Shown piece after piece: positions 5,729 to 18,655 of a DNA stretch of 46,638 nucleotides. The notes below the pieces were generated by a model, which saw only the letters and a program-made list of their open reading frames with translations, was not told the origin of the DNA and searched no databases. The translations under genes were made by a program, and so were the position numbers. The stretch covers positions 1 through 46,638 of the forward strand of contig JAITUR010000052.1 of assembly GCA_031286205.1 (NCBI GenBank), given 5' to 3'. Every line of letters starts with the position of its first letter. Position 1 is the first letter of the stretch. This DNA comes from Treponema sp. Its GTDB lineage: Bacteria; Spirochaetota; Spirochaetia; Treponematales; Breznakiellaceae.

Positions 5729-6568
5729 ATGGAAACAAGAACACCTGTCGAAATTTTAGCATACGCAAGCGATACAGGACTTGCAAAAACGCAGAGGAAA
5801 TTTTCTTCTGTGTTAATTTTGGCGTTTTTTGCCGGAATATTTATTGCCTTTGCGGCAGGAGTTTCTACCATAGCAGCCTATAATTTGTATGCTAATCCGG
5901 AAGCCTACGGACTTGGCAGGGCGGTGGCAGGAGTATTATTCGGCTCCGGATTAATGCTGGTTATTCTGGGAGGCGGGGAACTGTTTACCGGAAGTATGCT
6001 TATTGTTACAACGGCGCTGGATCGCAGAACGACAGTTAAAAAAATGTTTTTAAATTGGCTGCTTGTGTATATCGGCAATCTTGCAGGCAGTATTTTAATA
6101 GCATGGATGATATATCTTTCCGGTTTATTCAATAACTCTGCCGGTTTGCTGGGCGGCGTAACAATTACAATAGCCGCATCCAAGACATCTATTTCTTTTA
6201 TTGCCGCATTTGTTTTGGGTGTTCTGTGTAACTTGCTGGTCTGCTTTACTGTATGGACTACTTATGCGGCAAAAGATGCTGCGGGAAAAGTCCTAATAAT
6301 ATTTTTTCTTATACTGCTGTTTGCAACATCCGGATTTGAACACTCGGTAGCCAATATGTATTATATTCCTGCCGGAATCTTTGCTAAACTAAACCCGCAA
6401 TGGCTTGTTATGTCTCAGGCCTCTGCACAGCAGATTGCCGGTCTTAATTGGCTGAACTTTGCCGTAAAAAATTTAATTCCCGTAACACTTGGAAATATTA
6501 TTGGCGGTGTATTGGTAGGATTTTTATATTGGGTTTCTCTTGGAAAAAACAAGAGAACTTGTTCGTAA
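5729..6568 (+). CDS. Formate/nitrite transporter family channel
   Basis: A 279-residue integral membrane protein of the FNT family (FocA/NirC/HSC type), which form pentameric channels for small monovalent anions such as formate, nitrite or hydrosulfide. Six hydrophobic helices are evident. Family motifs seen are GGGELFTG after the second helix, LGVLCNLLVC in the fourth, and SGFEHSVANMY with the histidine placed where FNT proteins carry their conserved pore histidine. The ATG follows the upstream kinase stop by 3 bp, with its ribosome site inside the end of that gene. Next to hydrogenase maturation genes and an ASKHA ATPase, formate is the most likely substrate, but sequence alone does not exclude nitrite or hydrosulfide. 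Confidence 0.93.
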   Translation: METRTPVEILAYASDTGLAKTQRKFSSVLILAFFAGIFIAFAAGVSTIAAYNLYANPEAYGLGRAVAGVLFGSGLMLVILGGGELFTGSMLIVTTALDRRTTVKKMFLNWLLVYIGNLAGSILIAWMIYLSGLFNNSAGLLGGVTITIAASKTSISFIAAFVLGVLCNLLVCFTVWTTYAAKDAAGKVLIIFFLILLFATSGFEHSVANMYYIPAGIFAKLNPQWLVMSQASAQQIAGLNWLNFAVKNLIPVTLGNIIGGVLVGFLYWVSLGKNKRTCS

Positions 6569-6585: not shown

Positions 6586-7677
6586 ATGAAAAATAAAATT
6601 GCTCGCGCCGGAGTGGGATTAGACATTGGTACTACTACTGTGCAGGCACAGCTTATCGATTTAGATACCGGCAATACACTGGAATCTGTTTCTGTTCTGA
6701 ATGTTCAGCGGGAATTTGGCACAGATGTAATGTCTCGTATAGCCTGCGCGCGCGCAGGCAAACTTCGCGAATTATATACTGCAATTAACAAACAAGTGCA
6801 GGTTATACTGCATCAATTTATGGAAAAATGGAATTTGTCCGGTATAGATCTATGTACAGTAAGCGGCAATACAACAATGCTGCATTTATTTATCAATGTG
6901 AATCCTCATGCAATGGGAGAAGCTCCATACTCCCCCGAATTTTTAGAAGAGCGCCATTTTAACGGAAGCGATTTATCTTTACCGGCGGAGCAGATTATTT
7001 TGCTACCGGGTATCTCCGCTTTTATTGGCGCAGATATTGTTGCAGGGCTGACTTTTCTTGATGTGATCAATAAAAAAAACAATATGCTTTTTGTCGATAT
7101 TGGAACAAACGGCGAGATAGTCGTATGGAAGGGAAGCGAAAAACGGCTTTTATGCTGCTCTACCGCTGCCGGTCCGTGTTTCGAAGGAGAGGCGATAACT
7201 TACGGCTCTGATTTAATTGATGCAATTGCCCGGATGAAACAGCAAGGCATAGTCGATAAAACCGGCGCAATGAAAGACAGTTATGTGAATAGCGGTTTTA
7301 TCTCGGAAAAAGGATTTACCGTTACTCAGGAGACAGTGCGCCTGTTTCAACTGGCAAAGAGTGCGATTTATTCCGGAATTAGTGTATTGTGCAGGACTGT
7401 CGGAATGAAACCTTCTGCTTTTGACGAGGTTTATATTGCGGGCAGAATGGGTTTTTATATCAATTTGGAAAATGCGGCGGAAACCGGGCTTTTGCCGCGG
7501 GAGTTTACTAAAGGAGTACAGGTATGCGAGAACACAAGCCTAAAAGGAGCGGTAAAAGGTTTAACCGATTGTAGTTTTTTACAAAAATGTAAAGATATTA
7601 TTGCACATTCTGTAACAATAGACCTTGCTGTAGACAGGGAGTTTGCGGATGCATATATAGAAAATATGTGGTTGTAA
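6586..7677 (+). CDS. ASKHA-type ATPase, DUF4445/RACo-like, without ferredoxin domain
   Basis: 363 residues from ATG 6586. The frame is open further upstream, but that stretch overlaps the channel gene and is unlike the family, whereas the ASKHA phosphate-binding motif GLDIGTTTV starts only 9 residues after this ATG. The second motif, FVDIGTNGEIV, is near residue 170, and a late adenosine-type motif (EVYIAGRMG) is near 285. These are features of the C-terminal domain of RACo/RamA-type reductive activators of corrinoid proteins, which use ATP to drive reduction of Co(II) to Co(I). Classical RACo has an N-terminal [2Fe-2S] domain and a linker; here both are missing. The start has TATAAT 6 bases upstream and no clear Shine-Dalgarno. 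A role in corrinoid or other low-potential reactivation is inferred. Confidence 0.82.
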   Translation: MKNKIARAGVGLDIGTTTVQAQLIDLDTGNTLESVSVLNVQREFGTDVMSRIACARAGKLRELYTAINKQVQVILHQFMEKWNLSGIDLCTVSGNTTMLHLFINVNPHAMGEAPYSPEFLEERHFNGSDLSLPAEQIILLPGISAFIGADIVAGLTFLDVINKKNNMLFVDIGTNGEIVVWKGSEKRLLCCSTAAGPCFEGEAITYGSDLIDAIARMKQQGIVDKTGAMKDSYVNSGFISEKGFTVTQETVRLFQLAKSAIYSGISVLCRTVGMKPSAFDEVYIAGRMGFYINLENAAETGLLPREFTKGVQVCENTSLKGAVKGLTDCSFLQKCKDIIAHSVTIDLAVDREFADAYIENMWL

Positions 7678-8521: not shown

Positions 8522-9539
8522 GGCATACATGGCCAATATGCGTTACTATTTTATACCCTGCCGATAATACTTTTTTTTCCAGATACACCCTGCTCTCGGC
8601 GGCTTCTTCGTCGGTGCATATTTTATTATCATATATTTGATATTGTTTTCTAACTTTTACCGGAGAAAGATTTGGCATAACAATATTAGCGCCTGCCATT
8701 AAACCCAGTTCGCGGCCTTTTGGGTCGATAGTACCAAGAGCTGTTGTGGCAGGAATTAATGCTTTTGGAAACATAAGGCGTAAAATGGCAAGAAGCCTAA
8801 GGCATAAATGTAAATCTCCGTTTTTATTATTTCCAAACGGCGTATTTTGATGTGAAATATACGGGCCTATCCCTATCATATCCGGTTTTAGTTCCTGCAA
8901 AAAACGCAAGTCCTCTATAATATTTTCTGTAGTTTGATAAGGCGAACCTGTCATAAAACCGGATCCCGTCTGATAACCAATTTTTTTTAAATTCCATAAA
9001 CAATTTTTGCGGTTTTCCAGGCTCATGCTGTCAGGATGAAGTTTACGATAATGCTTATCGTTTGCTGTTTCGTGACGAAGCAGATAGCGGTCTGCGCCTG
9101 CATTAAACCATGCTTTGTAATCGTTATAAGGTCTTTCGCCTAACGATAATGTAATGGCACAATCCGGATACAGTTTTTTTATCTCAGAAACTATACAAGA
9201 AACTAATTCGTTGGAAAAATATGTATCTTCGCCGCCTTGCAATACAAAAGTACGAAACCCAAGCTCGTATCCGTTTTTACAACAGGATAAAATTTCCTCT
9301 TTGCCAAGTCTGTAGCGTTCTGCTATTGTATTGCTTTTACGAATTCCGCAGTAATAGCAGTCGTTTTTGCAATAATTGGTAAATTCAATTAAACCGCGGA
9401 TATAAACATCTGTTCCATAGTATTTTCTGCGGACATTGTCGGCTTTTTTATAAAGCTCCTGTCCGTATTCATTGTTTTCTATTAATTTTTTAAGTTCATT
9501 GTCCGGTAAATCTCCGGTTTTATAAAGCTGTTCTATCAA
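8496..9539 (-). CDS. hydE: HydE, [FeFe]-hydrogenase maturation radical SAM enzyme
   Basis: 347 residues. Radical SAM enzyme acting with HydG and HydF to build the [2Fe] part of the hydrogenase H-cluster; HydE processes the HydG iron product. The radical SAM cluster motif CxxxCxxC is at C57, C61 and C64 (YCKNDCYYCGIRKSN), followed by HydE-like stretches (VLQGGEDTYF, HETAND, GSGFMTGSPYQT, ATTALGTIDPKGRELGL). The start is TTG at 9539, preceded by GGGAG with a 9-base gap, and this gives the usual HydE N-terminus. The gene starts within the last 20 bases of hydF, so translation is probably coupled. Its 3' end overlaps the convergent SUMF1-like gene by 26 bp. No hydrogenase structural gene is in the window. 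Confidence 0.95.
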   Translation of the reverse strand: MIEQLYKTGDLPDNELKKLIENNEYGQELYKKADNVRRKYYGTDVYIRGLIEFTNYCKNDCYYCGIRKSNTIAERYRLGKEEILSCCKNGYELGFRTFVLQGGEDTYFSNELVSCIVSEIKKLYPDCAITLSLGERPYNDYKAWFNAGADRYLLRHETANDKHYRKLHPDSMSLENRKNCLWNLKKIGYQTGSGFMTGSPYQTTENIIEDLRFLQELKPDMIGIGPYISHQNTPFGNNKNGDLHLCLRLLAILRLMFPKALIPATTALGTIDPKGRELGLMAGANIVMPNLSPVKVRKQYQIYDNKICTDEEAAESRVYLEKKVLSAGYKIVTHIGHVCLNEHFLQP

Positions 9540-10740
9540 AATTATTTGCTCCCGTAAAAATACCTGTGCATCTTTCCAGTATTCCGTTTAAGAATGCAAG
9601 TATTATGCCATAATTAGTTACAGGAATATTATTTTCAGATAACAATTTTAATCTTGTTTGCAGTTCGGCTTTATTAATCATGCAGCTTCCGCAAAGTATT
9701 GCCATAGAATATTCATTCGGGTTTTCGTTTATATTGTAACCGCTAAAAAAATGAAAGTTAAACTTTTTTCCGGTATATTTTTCCAGTAATGCGGGTATTT
9801 TTACCCTGCCTATATCTTCGTGCGTATGATTATGGGTACAGGCTTCCAATATTAATATAGGATCGTTATTCTTTAGATTTTTTATTTGATCTATTCCTTT
9901 AAGGAGCTGCTTAAAATTACCTTTCTGGTGTGCAAGTAGAATCGAAAACGAAGTTAACGGAATATTTGCAGGAACTATATTGTTAACAATATTAAATATC
10001 TGCGAATCTGCAACGACAAGATCGACCGCCGAAACAACAGCCAGCGTTTCTTTAAGCTCTGTTTCTCTTGTAACACACACCTTTACACCATGATCCAGAC
10101 AGTCCCGAATAAGCTGTACCTGCGGAAGAATAAGCCTGCCCTTGGGAGCTTCGCTGTCTATGGAGACTGCCATAACAACAGTACCGCCGCGGGGAACCAA
10201 ACTGCAAATAAGCGAGTCCTCATCGGATACTTCTATCTCTTTTAATGTTTGCACAAGTGTATTTTTTAGCAATTCTATACTTTGCGGATCGTCCTGCGAA
10301 ACAAAAACCGCATTGGGGAACTGTTCCTTAATATTTTTTAAATCTTGCGAATTAATTAAATCGCATTTTGTAAATACATCGATTTTTTTGCCGGAAAAAA
10401 TATCTTTATAATCGACTCCATTAATATTTGCATTGTTTATCTCGTTTACATCTGCAAGCATAAGCCCAATATCCGCTCTGCGAGAAACATCGCGGGTTTT
10501 TTTTATCCGTTTCTTTCCCAGCTCTGTTGTATCATCCAGCCCTGCTGTATCAATTAATGTAACAGGGCCAAAGGGCAGTAACTCCATATTTTTTAGAACA
10601 GGGTCTGTGGTTGTTCCGGCTTTTTCGGACACAATAGCGTTATCGCAGCCGGTAAGCAGATTAAAAAGCATAGATTTACCGGAGTTTGTTTTTCCGAATA
10701 ATGCAATATGCCTGCGCAGTCCTCTTGGAGTGCTTTCCAT
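9520..10740 (-). CDS. hydF: HydF, GTPase and scaffold of [FeFe]-hydrogenase maturation
   Basis: 406 residues. HydF binds GTP, carries a [4Fe-4S] cluster and hands the assembled [2Fe] subcluster to apo-hydrogenase. The N-terminal GTPase domain has a P loop GKTNSGKS (residues 16-23), the switch threonines in AGTTTDP and the DTAGLDD motif; TKCD takes the place of NKxD. The C-terminal cluster-binding set is ACTHNHTHEDIGR followed about 50 residues later by CGSC, matching the HydF CxH...CxxC pattern. ATG 10740 is preceded by GGAG. It lies 13 bp after hydG and overlaps hydE. Confidence 0.96.
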   Translation of the reverse strand: MESTPRGLRRHIALFGKTNSGKSMLFNLLTGCDNAIVSEKAGTTTDPVLKNMELLPFGPVTLIDTAGLDDTTELGKKRIKKTRDVSRRADIGLMLADVNEINNANINGVDYKDIFSGKKIDVFTKCDLINSQDLKNIKEQFPNAVFVSQDDPQSIELLKNTLVQTLKEIEVSDEDSLICSLVPRGGTVVMAVSIDSEAPKGRLILPQVQLIRDCLDHGVKVCVTRETELKETLAVVSAVDLVVADSQIFNIVNNIVPANIPLTSFSILLAHQKGNFKQLLKGIDQIKNLKNNDPILILEACTHNHTHEDIGRVKIPALLEKYTGKKFNFHFFSGYNINENPNEYSMAILCGSCMINKAELQTRLKLLSENNIPVTNYGIILAFLNGILERCTGIFTGANNFDRTAL

Positions 10741-14559: not shown

Positions 14560-15552
14560 ATGAAAAAATATTTAATATTGATTATCGCGGCTATTGCACT
14601 GTTGGCATCCGGCTGTTTAAGAAAACAATCTGCCGGCGAAATGTCTGTACTGGTTTTTGTTCCGGGGCATATTGCGGGAAGTTCCACTTACGAACTAATG
14701 GTTCAGGGATCGCTGGAATTTGCAGAAAAAAATCCGGGTGTAAGTATAAAAGTTTACGAAGCGGGATTTAATCAGGCGGAGTGGGAACAGCAGATTGCAG
14801 AAATGGTCTCTTCCGGGCAATATGATATTTTTATCAGCTCTAATCCTTCTCTGCCGGAATTATGCGCCAATGTTGCGGAGATGTTTTATTTACAAAAATT
14901 TATTATTTTAGATGCCGATTACGAGGGACATTCGCAAATAAAAACTTATTCGTATAATCAATATGAACAATCTTTGTTTCTTGGATATTTGGCGGGTCTT
15001 ATAACTACAAGCAATATGAAACACGCAAACGCAGCCAAACGAATTGGTTTTATAGCGGCGCAGGAATACCCGCTTTTAACAAGACAAATGATACCCGGCT
15101 TTCTTGACGGCGCGCGTCTTGTGGATCCGCAAATAGAACTTGACAGGCGAATAATTGGTTCATGGGCGGATGCGAACAAAGCCGCAGAGCTTGCCTCCGC
15201 CATGATAGATACAGGCGTGGATGTGTTTACTTCCATTGCCGGAGGCGCTTCTACCGGAATAATAAAAACCGCCAGAGACAGGGGCGCTTATGTTTTAAGT
15301 TATAATTCCAACGAATACAACAATGCTCCCGGCACTATTGTCGGCTGCGGCGTTATGGAAATAAAAAAACTTGTAATGGAAGTCCTTGAACAAGCTTTAA
15401 ACAACGAAATTGAATACGGAAAACCCGAAACAGTCGGATTAAAAGAAGGCTATCTTAATTTTATTTTTAACGACCCCGGCTACTACGATAATATCCCGCA
15501 AGAAATCCGGCAAAGATTTGAGATGTTTGTGGAAGAACTTCGTGGAATGTGA
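14560..15552 (+). CDS. BMP/PnrA-family substrate-binding lipoprotein
   Basis: 330 residues. The signal peptide ends in the lipobox LLASGC (lipidated C19). The rest is a type-1 periplasmic-binding fold of the basic-membrane-protein family (PnrA/TmpC/Bmp), which in spirochetes bind purine nucleosides for ABC uptake. Typical stretches are QYDIFISSNPSL, RIGFIAAQEYPLLTRQMIPG, VFTSIAGGASTG and GTIVGCGVMEIKKLV. No permease or ATPase gene is beside it, so it either serves a distant transporter or acts as a sensor-type binder. AAGGAG lies 11 bases before the ATG. Its last 72-bp coding stretch (15439-15510) is repeated downstream at 15950-16021. Confidence 0.88.
   Translation: MKKYLILIIAAIALLASGCLRKQSAGEMSVLVFVPGHIAGSSTYELMVQGSLEFAEKNPGVSIKVYEAGFNQAEWEQQIAEMVSSGQYDIFISSNPSLPELCANVAEMFYLQKFIILDADYEGHSQIKTYSYNQYEQSLFLGYLAGLITTSNMKHANAAKRIGFIAAQEYPLLTRQMIPGFLDGARLVDPQIELDRRIIGSWADANKAAELASAMIDTGVDVFTSIAGGASTGIIKTARDRGAYVLSYNSNEYNNAPGTIVGCGVMEIKKLVMEVLEQALNNEIEYGKPETVGLKEGYLNFIFNDPGYYDNIPQEIRQRFEMFVEELRGM
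15439..15510 (+). repeat. 72-bp direct repeat, copy 1 (inside the BMP gene)
   Basis: This coding stretch near the end of the BMP-lipoprotein gene reappears 511 bp downstream at 15950-16021 with 5 mismatches in 72. Here it encodes part of the conserved C-terminus. Confidence 0.9.
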
Positions 15553-15945: not shown

Positions 15946-15949
15946 ATAA

Positions 15950-16021
15950 TTAAAAGAAAATTATCTTAATTTTATTTTTAACGACCCCGGCTACTACGAT
16001 AATATCCCGGAAGAAACCCGG
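15950..16021 (+). repeat. 72-bp direct repeat, copy 2 (remnant of the BMP gene end)
   Basis: A non-coding copy of 15439-15510 with 67 of 72 bases identical. It starts just after the small membrane protein gene and loses similarity at 16022. It is a fossil of a duplication or insertion at this site. Confidence 0.88.
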
Positions 16022-16105
16022 CTGTATAAACATTATGCGCCATTGTGAATGATAGTAAAATAATATTAGTAAATTAAAATATTTATTTCGGAGGGAATTA
16101 ATTGT

Positions 16106-16246
16106 ATGTCTAATGCGGTTTATTATGTTTCTTATAAGCTAAAAAAAGGAGCATCTGTACCTGATTTTTTGCTTGCAGCCGAAAAGTTAAATAACGAGCA
16201 AATTTCTAAGAAAAAAGGCGTAAAAGGCACTCAGAAAAAAGACTAA
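16106..16246 (+). pseudogene. Short 46-residue gene, probably a truncated family member
   Basis: ATG 16106 has a good ribosome site (GGAGGG about 10 bases upstream). The N-terminal part (VYYVSYKLKKGASVPDFLLAAEKL in pieces) looks like the beginning of a small ferredoxin-like (monooxygenase-type) protein normally near 100 residues. After residue 33 it turns into a low-complexity lysine-rich tail (KKKGVKGTQKKD) and stops. I take it for a gene cut short by rearrangement, since both flanks carry repeats and odd sequence. A functional small basic peptide cannot be excluded. Confidence 0.45.
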
Positions 16247-16264
16247 AAATCCTCCCAAAAAGTC

Positions 16265-16293
16265 TTGACATAACCAAAACAATGTGATATAAT
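16265..16293 (+). promoter_or_regulatory. Perfect sigma-70 promoter into the 16.3-kb leader region
   Basis: TTGACA (16265-16270), a 17-base spacer and TATAAT (16288-16293). Predicted start near 16300. It reads into the heptanucleotide repeat and structured leader ahead of the DUF1566 lipoprotein gene, so it may be that gene's promoter with a leader of nearly 280 bases, or the promoter of a small RNA. Confidence 0.8.
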
Positions 16294-16302
16294 ATACTAG
16301 TA

Positions 16303-16389
<87 letters not shown>

Positions 16390-16578
16390 TCTACATACTA
16401 GAAGAGATTTTTCACTATTTACCTCAAAAACCCAATTTTCTCAGGAGAAATGCCGCTTGTAATTACTTACAGGCAGCTTTTATATATGCAAATCAAATAA
16501 CAAAGGCGACTTTGTCTCCGCGTTGCGGAGCCATTCTATTATATTCGCCGCTAGAAGCGGCATAGGAAGGAGTTAATT
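16390..16578 (+). promoter_or_regulatory. Structured leader of the DUF1566 lipoprotein gene
   Basis: No gene longer than 16 codons fits here. The region holds two perfect hairpins: CTCCGC-GTT-GCGGAG (16516-16530) and GCCGC-TAGAA-GCGGC (16547-16561), the second just 5 bases before the AAGGAG ribosome site (16567-16572). A weaker TGTAA/TTACA pair lies near 16458-16472. The placement suggests control of translation or of mRNA stability; no known riboswitch class is recognised. Confidence 0.45.
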
Positions 16579-17442
16579 ATGAAAACAGTAAAAAGACTGT
16601 TAGGAATTGCCGTAATTGTTACGGTAATTGGATTGGTAGTTACAGCTTGCGATGAGTCGCACACTTGCGAGTTCACCGGCTGGGAAATTTCAACCACAGC
16701 AAATTGTAAAGACATTGCAATCCAAACAGGAACTTGCAGTTGCGGAGAAACAACAACCCGCAATGAACCCGATGGAACCATAGACGCAAGCAATCACGAC
16801 CACAGTATTGTAGCAGGTTCAGGCAGTTTAATTTGCAGAAGAACAAACTGCGAACATCAGTACGCAATCGGCGACATAGGTCCCGCAGGCGGGATAATTT
16901 TCTATGTTGCAGATGGACAAAACGGCAGACAAACAAGCATTACAGTACAGGCATCGCCAGACGGAACACCGGCAGACAGGGCTTGGACTGAATACACCGC
17001 CTACTACCTTGAAGCCGCTAAAACAAATGAAGGCGTTCTCTTTTGGGATCCTTCTCCTTCTGGAACACTAATTAACGGCGTAACAACCCTTACAACTGGT
17101 TTGGAAACGGAAGCCTCTCTTTTAGGGAATGGAAGGAAAGACACACAACTTATTGTAAATCATCTTGTGACGACAGATGATGTAGCTGCCAAATTATGCG
17201 CAAATAGAACAAGTGGCGGCACAGATTGGTTTCTACCAAGTTTAGGAGAATTAAATCAACTCTATCTTAACAAAGAGGCTGTTAGTGCAGCCGGTGGCAG
17301 TTTTACAAGTTGGTTTTACTGGTCTTCGTCGCAGTACGATGCGAGATTTGCGTTGAAACAGAGATTCGACAATGGCAAACAGTACTATGAATTTAAGAAT
17401 GACATAGCCTACCACTTTGTTCATGCCGTGCGAGCCTTTTAG
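16579..17442 (+). CDS. DUF1566-type lipoprotein, candidate DGR target protein
   Basis: 287 residues. Lipobox VVTAC gives lipidated C24. Residues 25-95 are Cys-rich and low in hydrophobics, and then a DUF1566/Lcl-like C-type-lectin-fold domain follows: IGDIGPAGGIIFYV, YLEAA, DWFLPSLGELNQLYLNK, FYWSSSQYD and the closing VRAF. In the last 40 residues most variable positions are encoded by codons ending in C or T and give Y, D, F, H, A or N, as expected when AAC/AAT codons of a template are changed at adenines. This is the signature of a diversity-generating-retroelement variable region. Hairpins follow at once. A strong AAGGAG sits 6 bases before the ATG. A surface binding role is inferred. Confidence 0.8.
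   Translation: MKTVKRLLGIAVIVTVIGLVVTACDESHTCEFTGWEISTTANCKDIAIQTGTCSCGETTTRNEPDGTIDASNHDHSIVAGSGSLICRRTNCEHQYAIGDIGPAGGIIFYVADGQNGRQTSITVQASPDGTPADRAWTEYTAYYLEAAKTNEGVLFWDPSPSGTLINGVTTLTTGLETEASLLGNGRKDTQLIVNHLVTTDDVAAKLCANRTSGGTDWFLPSLGELNQLYLNKEAVSAAGGSFTSWFYWSSSQYDARFALKQRFDNGKQYYEFKNDIAYHFVHAVRAF
17317..17439 (+). other. Candidate DGR variable region
   Basis: The end of the lipoprotein gene from the WSSS motif to the final codon. Aromatic and acidic residues encoded by TAC, TAT, TTT, GAT, GAC and CAC alternate with invariant family residues (A, Q, G, VRAF). All these codons are reachable from AAC or AAT by changing adenines only. No template repeat or reverse transcriptase is in the window, so this call rests on codon pattern and position. 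Confidence 0.45.
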
Positions 17443-17447
17443 GCTCG
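17431..17447 (+). terminator. Hairpin spanning the stop codon of the DUF1566 gene
   Basis: Perfect inverted repeat CGAGCCT-TTT-AGGCTCG that includes the last codons and the TAG; CGAGCC then occurs once more directly after. It has no U-run, so it is either a cruciform of the type that follows DGR variable regions or an mRNA-end structure. Confidence 0.5.
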
Positions 17448-17468
17448 CGAGCCGATAGGAAGGATTAA

Positions 17469-17525
17469 ATGGGTGCTAGTGCACCCGACATCTTCCGGGC
17501 TTTTAATAATTTAACCTTACTTTAG
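17469..17525 (+). CDS. Possible 18-residue peptide gene
   Basis: ATG 17469 follows AGGAAGGA, a ribosome-site context very like that of the preceding lipoprotein gene (ATAGGAAGGAGTTAA against ATAGGAAGGATTAA). The frame runs 18 codons and ends at the first base of the large hairpin. It may be a relic of a duplicated gene start. Confidence 0.2.
   Translation: MGASAPDIFRAFNNLTLL
17471..17486 (+). repeat. Perfect hairpin GGGTGC-TAGT-GCACCC
   Basis: Six-base-pair stem with a four-base loop, about 30 bases past the stop of the candidate variable-protein gene. Size and place resemble the cruciforms seen after DGR variable regions, but the loop is not the usual GNRA type. Confidence 0.6.
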
Positions 17526-17561
17526 TGCGGTCAGCGTCAACTGTGTTGACGCTGACCGCAC
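17525..17561. terminator. 16-bp perfect inverted repeat with 5-base loop
   Basis: GTGCGGTCAGCGTCAA and its exact reverse complement are separated by CTGTG. It is by far the strongest palindrome in the window. It lies between the DUF1566 gene and the convergent lipoprotein operon, so a bidirectional terminator is the simple reading, though no T-run flanks it. A TGAAAC-AAA-GTTTCA hairpin (17576-17590) follows. The rest of 17562-17671 shows nothing recognisable. Confidence 0.75.
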
Positions 17562-17671
17562 ACTTTAATCGAACATGAAACAAAGTTTCACGACAACCGT
17601 TTAACTATTAAAAAGGGGTGTTGCGCCGTGCTTTTAATTGGCGGGGGTTGTCTAACTTCTAATTTCCAGTC

Positions 17672-18655
17672 CTAATTCTTATCGTCCAATATTCCTATAG
17701 TCCCGCCGTTTTGGGTAAAATCAGCGTCTTCCTCTATATACACATCAAAACCTGTATTGCCGGAGATTGTTCCGCCGTTCATTTCAAAGGCTCCGCTGTT
17801 TATTTTTACGCCGCCGCCGGTACTATTTCCTGTTATGACAACACCGGAATTCATTTTTAATGTTCCATGTTCCACTTCTATAAGTGCAGGGGCTGCACCG
17901 CCGGTTATTGTTAAAGTACCTATCAAACCATCCAAACCAACGATATCATCTTCCATGCCAAGGATAACAGTAGGGGTACAAAAATCATCAAAAGGAAGTT
18001 GGAAAACAGGGGTGCCACTAATAGATGTTATCTTCCTATTTCCCATAGGAAGTATGGTGTAAGTATCAGCACGGGAAGTAAAACACTCATACTTAAAGGA
18101 AAGTGTACTGTCAGCAATCAAATCATTTGTAATAAAAATAATTCCTCCATACTTGAGACTGCTTAGATGATCATCTTGGTTAAAAATGGCATTAAATGTA
18201 GCCCAATCACTAACATCCGTAGCGGACTGCGTTACTATTTCTACTTCGTTTACCATATTAGTGCGAACCTGAAAATCTTTTACCCTGCCATATTTTGTCA
18301 TTGAAAATTCACCGGTTAAAGAATCTATCCATCCACGGCGAATTTCAATTGTCCATGGTCCCGGAGCGAGTCTAAAAGTAATGTCAACAATTTGAGTACC
18401 AGAAAAAACCGGTCCTTGTGTAATGGTTTCCCCAAATGCATTGGTAAGCGTTACGATGTAGTCCCCCGCATAACCAAAAGCTGCTTGCCGTGCGGAAGAA
18501 CTTGTCCCCATTTGTGCGGGCAAGTCCGGGTCGATAATGGTAATTCTAAAACCGGTTCCGCCGCCTTCATAATCGCTGAAACATCCTGCCAAAGACAATA
18601 CCAAAAAAATCATACCTAATGCCGCTATAATTGCAGTTATCTTTATTGTTTTCAT
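17672..18655 (-). CDS. Lipoprotein with C-terminal beta-helix-type repeats
   Basis: 327 residues from ATG 18655, chosen because GGAGG lies just upstream; a GTG four codons earlier overlaps that site. The signal peptide ends in the lipobox LSLAGC (lipidated C25). Residues 30-150 form a beta-rich domain of unknown family. From about 240 on there are glycine- and asparagine-rich short repeats (MNSGVVITGNSTGGG, INSGAFEMNGGTISGN), as in right-handed beta-helix surface proteins of treponemes. The array is short, about three turns, and the protein ends abruptly. It is the last gene of a four-gene unit with the FecR protein, the outer-membrane protein and a secreted protein. Function unknown. Confidence 0.75.
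   Translation of the reverse strand: MKTIKITAIIAALGMIFLVLSLAGCFSDYEGGGTGFRITIIDPDLPAQMGTSSSARQAAFGYAGDYIVTLTNAFGETITQGPVFSGTQIVDITFRLAPGPWTIEIRRGWIDSLTGEFSMTKYGRVKDFQVRTNMVNEVEIVTQSATDVSDWATFNAIFNQDDHLSSLKYGGIIFITNDLIADSTLSFKYECFTSRADTYTILPMGNRKITSISGTPVFQLPFDDFCTPTVILGMEDDIVGLDGLIGTLTITGGAAPALIEVEHGTLKMNSGVVITGNSTGGGVKINSGAFEMNGGTISGNTGFDVYIEEDADFTQNGGTIGILDDKN

Follow-up and report, generated by a model that had tools for sequence, protein, structure and literature searches.

An orphan, apparently retired target of a diversity-generating retroelement at the end of a Treponema lipoprotein gene

Introduction

In Treponema denticola, 8 of 17 isolates each carry 2-6 targets of a diversity-generating retroelement (DGR) with neither template (TR) nor reverse transcriptase (RT), and the authors of that study read these targets as leftovers (PMC4891356). 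The domain DUF1566 (Lcl_C) is the commonest annotated target domain among DGRs of the human microbiome (PMC4159848). Work on BPP-1 demonstrated that homing needs the 3' region of the target, including a downstream hairpin, and the hairpin in that study has a stem of 7-10 bp and a 4-nt GRNA loop (PMC3240598).

Here we analyse a Treponema sp. lipoprotein gene whose end an earlier note had proposed as a DGR variable region (VR). The class to which the gene belongs is a known one, since DUF1566 targets and leftover targets have both been described. With the T. denticola leftovers it shares a target of lipoprotein type, a VR at the gene end, a genome lacking RT and TR, several targets per genome, and a full element kept in related genomes (PMC4891356). 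The T. denticola targets, however, belong to the FGE-sulfatase type (TvpA-like), and adenines still account for most differences between their leftover VRs and known TRs (PMC4891356), whereas the gene described here is of the Lcl_C/DUF1566 type, displays no A-specificity against the TRs known from the genus, and has an interrupted homing end. It has the same Pfam domain and the same C-terminal VR as the human-microbiome DUF1566 targets, but these accompany an RT and a template (PMC4159848) and our locus has neither. As at the BPP-1 site, with its VR, IMH and downstream hairpin, a GC-rich hairpin lies close after the VR; in a related genome with a complete DGR (G044), the VR of the core target is followed downstream by an 8-bp stem that closes a GCAA loop. 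Unlike the BPP-1 hairpin, the nearest one in our gene straddles the stop codon, has a 3-nt loop and is part of an interposed segment, and thus departs from the published description (PMC3240598).

Results

The window, meaning the whole stretch of DNA analysed (46,638 nt), is contig C103 of genome G000, a draft of 2.34 Mb in 126 contigs that is 94.5% complete. The gene of interest, on the plus strand at 16579-17442, encodes a protein of 287 aa with a lipobox-like VTAC at residues 21-24 and, at residues 199-285, a C-terminal domain of the Lcl_C (DUF1566) family. The match to PF07603 (E 1.2e-6) scores 29.2 bits, below the curated cut-off of 34.9; together with the lipobox it bears out the original designation as a DUF1566 lipoprotein. 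In protein searches, 31 of the 40 same-genus genomes had homologues, 2 of which adjoin reverse transcriptases, and there were no relatives in genome_contigs or viral_contigs at the search sensitivity used. With regard to a possible C-type lectin fold, the observations are the Lcl_C match, a structure prediction of low confidence (mean pLDDT 34.9) and a match of a profile of the protein and three DGR targets to the solved chain 8q4e_A (E 2.6e-19). The lipoprotein is presumably displayed on the cell surface and presumably binds a ligand. No Rfam family matched at 16000-18000.

Two sets of repeats lie upstream of the gene. An array of 5.7 GTTCTCC heptamers (16348-16387) is contained in a block of ~200 bp (16308-16506) that is 82% identical to positions 9563-9758 of locus L208 on another contig of the same genome (C15), where about 5 GTTCTCC copies are found and a different lipoprotein-like gene follows. 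Judged by the alignment, the two blocks look like a shared leader in which the repeat number could vary. Further upstream, a 74-bp direct repeat occupies 15438-15511 and 15949-16022 (93% identical).

Complete DGR cassettes with homologous targets are present in 3 of the 40 same-genus genomes, namely G078 and G044, where scanning for near-repeats whose differences are biased towards A revealed them, and G159, in which RT and Avd led to the cassette. The cassette begins with the target lipoprotein, followed by Avd, TR and RT. The RT carries the motifs IGNLTSQ and YVDD. The accessory gene is recognized as Avd by models of Pfam and PHROGs and, below the curated cut-off, of NCBIfam. The TR/VR pair of G078 (L065, 130 nt) has 24 of its 25 mismatches at template A, and that of G044 (L066, 127 nt) 25 of 27. 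Targets located on different contigs of these genomes fit the template too: L127 is changed relative to it at 15/41 A-sites and 1/76 non-A sites, and L133 at 20/40 and 2/74, respectively. This indicates that a DGR of this type rewrites several dispersed lipoprotein genes. Across the genus, the rate of change per template A is ~45%. The window protein is 42% (G044) and 38% (G078) identical to the core targets, with the VR in the equal, C-terminal position. The named records with this DGR are Treponema sp. MAGs, which we take, from their isolate names, to be termite-gut assemblies. A Psychroserpens record contains an RT of 49% identity, with the same kind of target nearby.

The cassette can also be found half deleted. 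In G164 (L122 on contig C10, minus strand, about 5310-4280) the target's VR is clean and its 3' end intact, but all that directly follows is the last ~48 aa of a DGR RT (54% identity); Avd and TR are missing, as is most of the RT. Cassette loss does therefore occur in the genus.

The evidence for DGR ancestry of the window VR comes from its codons. The last 40 codons of the gene align with genuine VRs of same-genus relatives, and most of the TAC, TAT, TTT, GAT, GAC and CAC codons first singled out there fall on AAY positions of the relatives' templates. Between altered variable codons the constant ones read, in order, TCT TCG TCG CAG / GCG / CAG / TTC / GGC / CAG / AAG. Aligned to the G044 template, the window retains the sequence TGG TCT TCG TCG CAG ... 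GCG ... CAG ... TTC GAC AAT GGC ... CAG ... AAG. For the conserved tryptophan codon (TGG) of the family, the window has TTG. All ten tested constant codons are of the TR type, the G044 and G078 templates carrying the identical ten; given the codon frequencies of contig C103, chance would produce such a match with a probability of about 1e-6, which we take as good evidence that the VR was once copied from a DGR template.

The same pattern extends to the homologues. Within the VR synonymous codons are strongly kept (AAG in 41/41 at K273, CAG in 35/37 at Q261), and upstream of it the codons for conserved residues are scrambled. Synonymous identity between genomes is 0.62 in the VR vs 0.43 upstream, and between the window and other genomes 0.76 vs 0.44. 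Taken together with the targeting of homologous same-genus lipoproteins by complete DGRs, these codons make descent of the window VR from a DGR variable region well supported on grounds of homology and codon identity, and the link first proposed between this gene end and a DGR stands. The VR-derived part spans 17320-17429 (plus strand); of the interval originally proposed, 17317-17442, the portion from 17430 onwards belongs to an interposed segment.

An adenine signature is not found. When the window is set beside the best known template, differences fall on 17/40 A-sites and on 20/74 non-A sites (Fisher p 0.10), whereas the same test on G044's own TR/VR pair yields p 1e-9. If the window's template was of the AAY type, like the genus templates, as this comparison presumes, variable codons should end in C or T; 12 of the 19 do, vs 133 of 136 in eight template-matched VRs (Fisher p 1.3e-5). 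The share of C/T third bases (0.63) is background-like, the upstream value being 0.53. Seven of the 19 variable codons (GCG, AGA, AAA, AGA, AAA, GAA and ATA) are unreachable from AAC/AAT by adenine changes alone, and an AAY signature covering the entire region is not confirmed. Since the constant codons are intact, the lost third-base signature is not simple decay, and drift after retirement does not account well for it; a template with AAA codons would fit the third-base pattern as well.

Searches of the 94.5% complete G000 assembly for the rest of the element were negative. There was no match to PF00078, to the DGR RT of the genus, or to an Avd of the genus cassette type. The earlier note placed the template elsewhere in the genome, to be recognized as an A-bearing near-copy close to an RT gene. 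No copy was found in the window or in the assembled genome by a strict A-aware pattern, nor in G000 by blastn. Exact matches to the core motif TGGTCTTCRTCGCAG in G000 are the gene ends of the window and of contigs C124 and C107 only, and exact matches to a generic TR pattern are confined to the three cassette genomes. The other two VR-like gene ends of G000 (C124, C107) are likewise without a template, and a search for relics of RT or Avd near the window gene and both of its paralogues was negative, while it clearly recovered the positive control, G164. A second match in G000 to a 39-mer pattern was rejected as a template, being an A-rich stretch without resemblance; across 200 family genomes this pattern hit mostly A-runs, about equally often in a reversed control, and was uninformative. 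Downstream of the VR-like gene on C124 (L080), a repeat of ~120 bp with 4 mismatches is present at 6594-6713 and 8794-8913.

The homing site is split. The typical VR end of the family is GTCCGTGCNGTNCGGGCTTTTTAA, often followed by the motif TTTAACCCTTTAAC, of which all ten occurrences in about 1 Mb of partly overlapping sequence stand just after VR-end sequence. The coding end of the window gene is instead GTTCATGCCGTGCGAGCCTTTTAG, with CAT for CGT, GTG, CGA and GCC. A segment of 64 nt with two hairpins (17430-17493, plus strand), whose first bases re-encode R-A-F-stop, stands between the body of the VR and its ancestral end. Its first hairpin, GCGAGCCT-TTT-AGGCTCGC (17430-17448), is the one across the stop codon, and the second, GGGTGC-TAGT-GCACCC, is at 17471-17486. 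The 3' homing sequence matching the TR 3' end is hence not contiguous with the window VR but displaced by 64 nt, to 17494. From there to 17647 the plus strand, starting with TCCGGGCTTTTAATAATTTAACC, aligns with the sequence that follows the uninterrupted VR end of L084 in G078 (score 144.5; maximum of 36 in 500 null simulations). This ancestral flank includes a perfect hairpin with a 17-bp stem (17525-17561), to which the shorter L084 hairpin GTGCGGTC-GAAT-GACCGCAC corresponds. Since the VR body is separated from the match to the template 3' end, retrohoming at this site should be impaired, by analogy with BPP-1.

Full-length counterparts of the segment occupy the equivalent site in L135 (G156) and L140 (G139), the former followed by an intact CGGGCTTTTTAACTATTTAACCCTTTAAC, and possible partial forms occur in L075 (G167). 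The second stem corresponds to GAGCGC/GCGCTC in L135 and GGGCGC/GCGCCC in L140, and a linker around AGGAA-GATT is common to the three long segments. Both stems are kept in the three genomes despite changes on both sides; with only three long sequences, this is suggestive. Beyond these sites, neither about 337 kb of further G000 sequence nor about 355 kb sampled from G139 and G156 contained the segment, and a common repeat was rejected for the sequence sampled from these genomes. By eye, it contains no attC core boxes that would point to an integron. Carriers of the segment are dispersed over the tree built from the protein bodies, whose supported branches require 3 or more changes. One insertion in a shared ancestor is thus disfavoured, and independent insertions are not proven, because the 3' ends may have recombined. 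The split homing site is unusual, and the segment inside it is the least expected part of the locus.

Discussion

Our results favor the view that the window VR is an orphan and apparently retired DGR target, whose RT, Avd and template have been lost and whose homing sequence has been split; we consider this probable. An ancestor of the lipoprotein gene would have served a DUF1566-type DGR as a target, and DGRs like it persist in 3 of the 40 genomes. This ancestral DGR would have copied a template rich in asparagine codons into the gene end with adenine-specific errors, and would thereby have diversified the end of a C-type-lectin-like domain. The lineage of the window would later have lost RT, Avd and template or, less likely, these would sit in the unassembled ~5% of the genome. 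The 64-nt segment separates the homing sequence from the VR body while retaining the C-terminal R-A-F and the stop. The protein presumably holds one fixed variant, which would now evolve by ordinary mutation.

Could the gene still be rewritten in trans, by an RT, Avd and a template with AAA and AAY codons in the unassembled part of the genome? The assembly is a draft of 126 contigs, 94.5% complete, so that a cassette could be missing from it, and trans targets do occur in related genomes. Of the seven variable codons with a purine at the third position, six have A there (AGA, AAA, AGA, AAA, GAA and ATA), and AAA codons in a template are a possible source of these six; the constant codons are unaltered, as in template-matched VRs. 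The cassette type is however present in only 3 of 40 genomes, vs 31 with homologues; the VR body is severed from its homing end; the two other VR-like gene ends of G000 equally lack a template; and six unchanged third-position A's are somewhat unlikely at ~45% change per template A. We therefore hold continued rewriting to be very improbable. An active DGR at the window, as the earlier note envisaged, is not supported, there being no A-biased template, RT or Avd as far as the assembly goes; with all three absent from it and the homing site split, the target looks retired rather than live. It also seems very improbable that the gene was never a DGR target and has an ordinary divergent Lcl_C domain that resembles VRs through shared protein family. 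The lack of A-specific differences against known templates and the background-like third bases of the variable codons would agree with this, but ten of ten constant codons are template-type where upstream codons for conserved residues are scrambled, and a DGR-type VR 3' end with its flank lies just downstream. The codon match by itself already disfavours such an origin.

How the segment at 17430-17493 came about is a separate question. Recombination between two neighbouring target genes may have deleted most of the second, sparing its start and its VR end, and left the segment as a scar; this is a real possibility, though we would not expect it to be the answer. The segment has an RBS-like AGGAAGG followed by ATG, the AAGGAA linker is common to the long segments of G156 and G139, and tandem arrays of lipoprotein genes are known in G167. 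On the other hand, the persistence of both stems in three genomes through two-sided changes suggests either selection or inheritance as a structured unit, the frame would begin MGAS..., unlike a lipoprotein, and a short form in L075 (6304) is without RBS and ATG. We regard it as rather unlikely that a two-hairpin element of ~60-75 nt repeatedly enters DGR homing sites in the genus, re-encoding the last residues and the stop, disconnecting the homing sequence and locking one variant. Should the segment nevertheless turn out to be a mobile element, it would offer a natural route to freezing a DGR variant.

For VR-like lipoprotein ends in these treponemes, an active DGR should not be assumed without RT and template. 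Template-type codons and contiguity with the homing end offer two simple tests that divide live, retired and relic targets. Moreover, the genus contains orphan targets next to live cassettes and one that is half deleted (G164), so that it is possible to trace how a diversifying system is lost.

Other VR-like gene ends and DGRs were noted in the genus. On contigs C20 and C23 of G167 (L075, L076), Lcl_C lipoprotein genes that end in VR-like sequence stand side by side in arrays, and no template matching these ends was found in this 70% complete genome. On contig C9 of the same genome (L141), an A-biased TR/VR pair unrelated to the window VR (6390-6484 and 7300-7394; 13/13 mismatches at template A) lies near an RT of another type, with the motif LGLGSQVSQ. 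A second DGR type is found in G160, G181, G171, G153 and G182 (L144-L148), with RTs about 30-39% identical to those of the first type and VRs that resemble FGE-sulfatase ends; here 19/19, 21/22, 20/25, 22/23 and 22/23 mismatches, respectively, are at template A.
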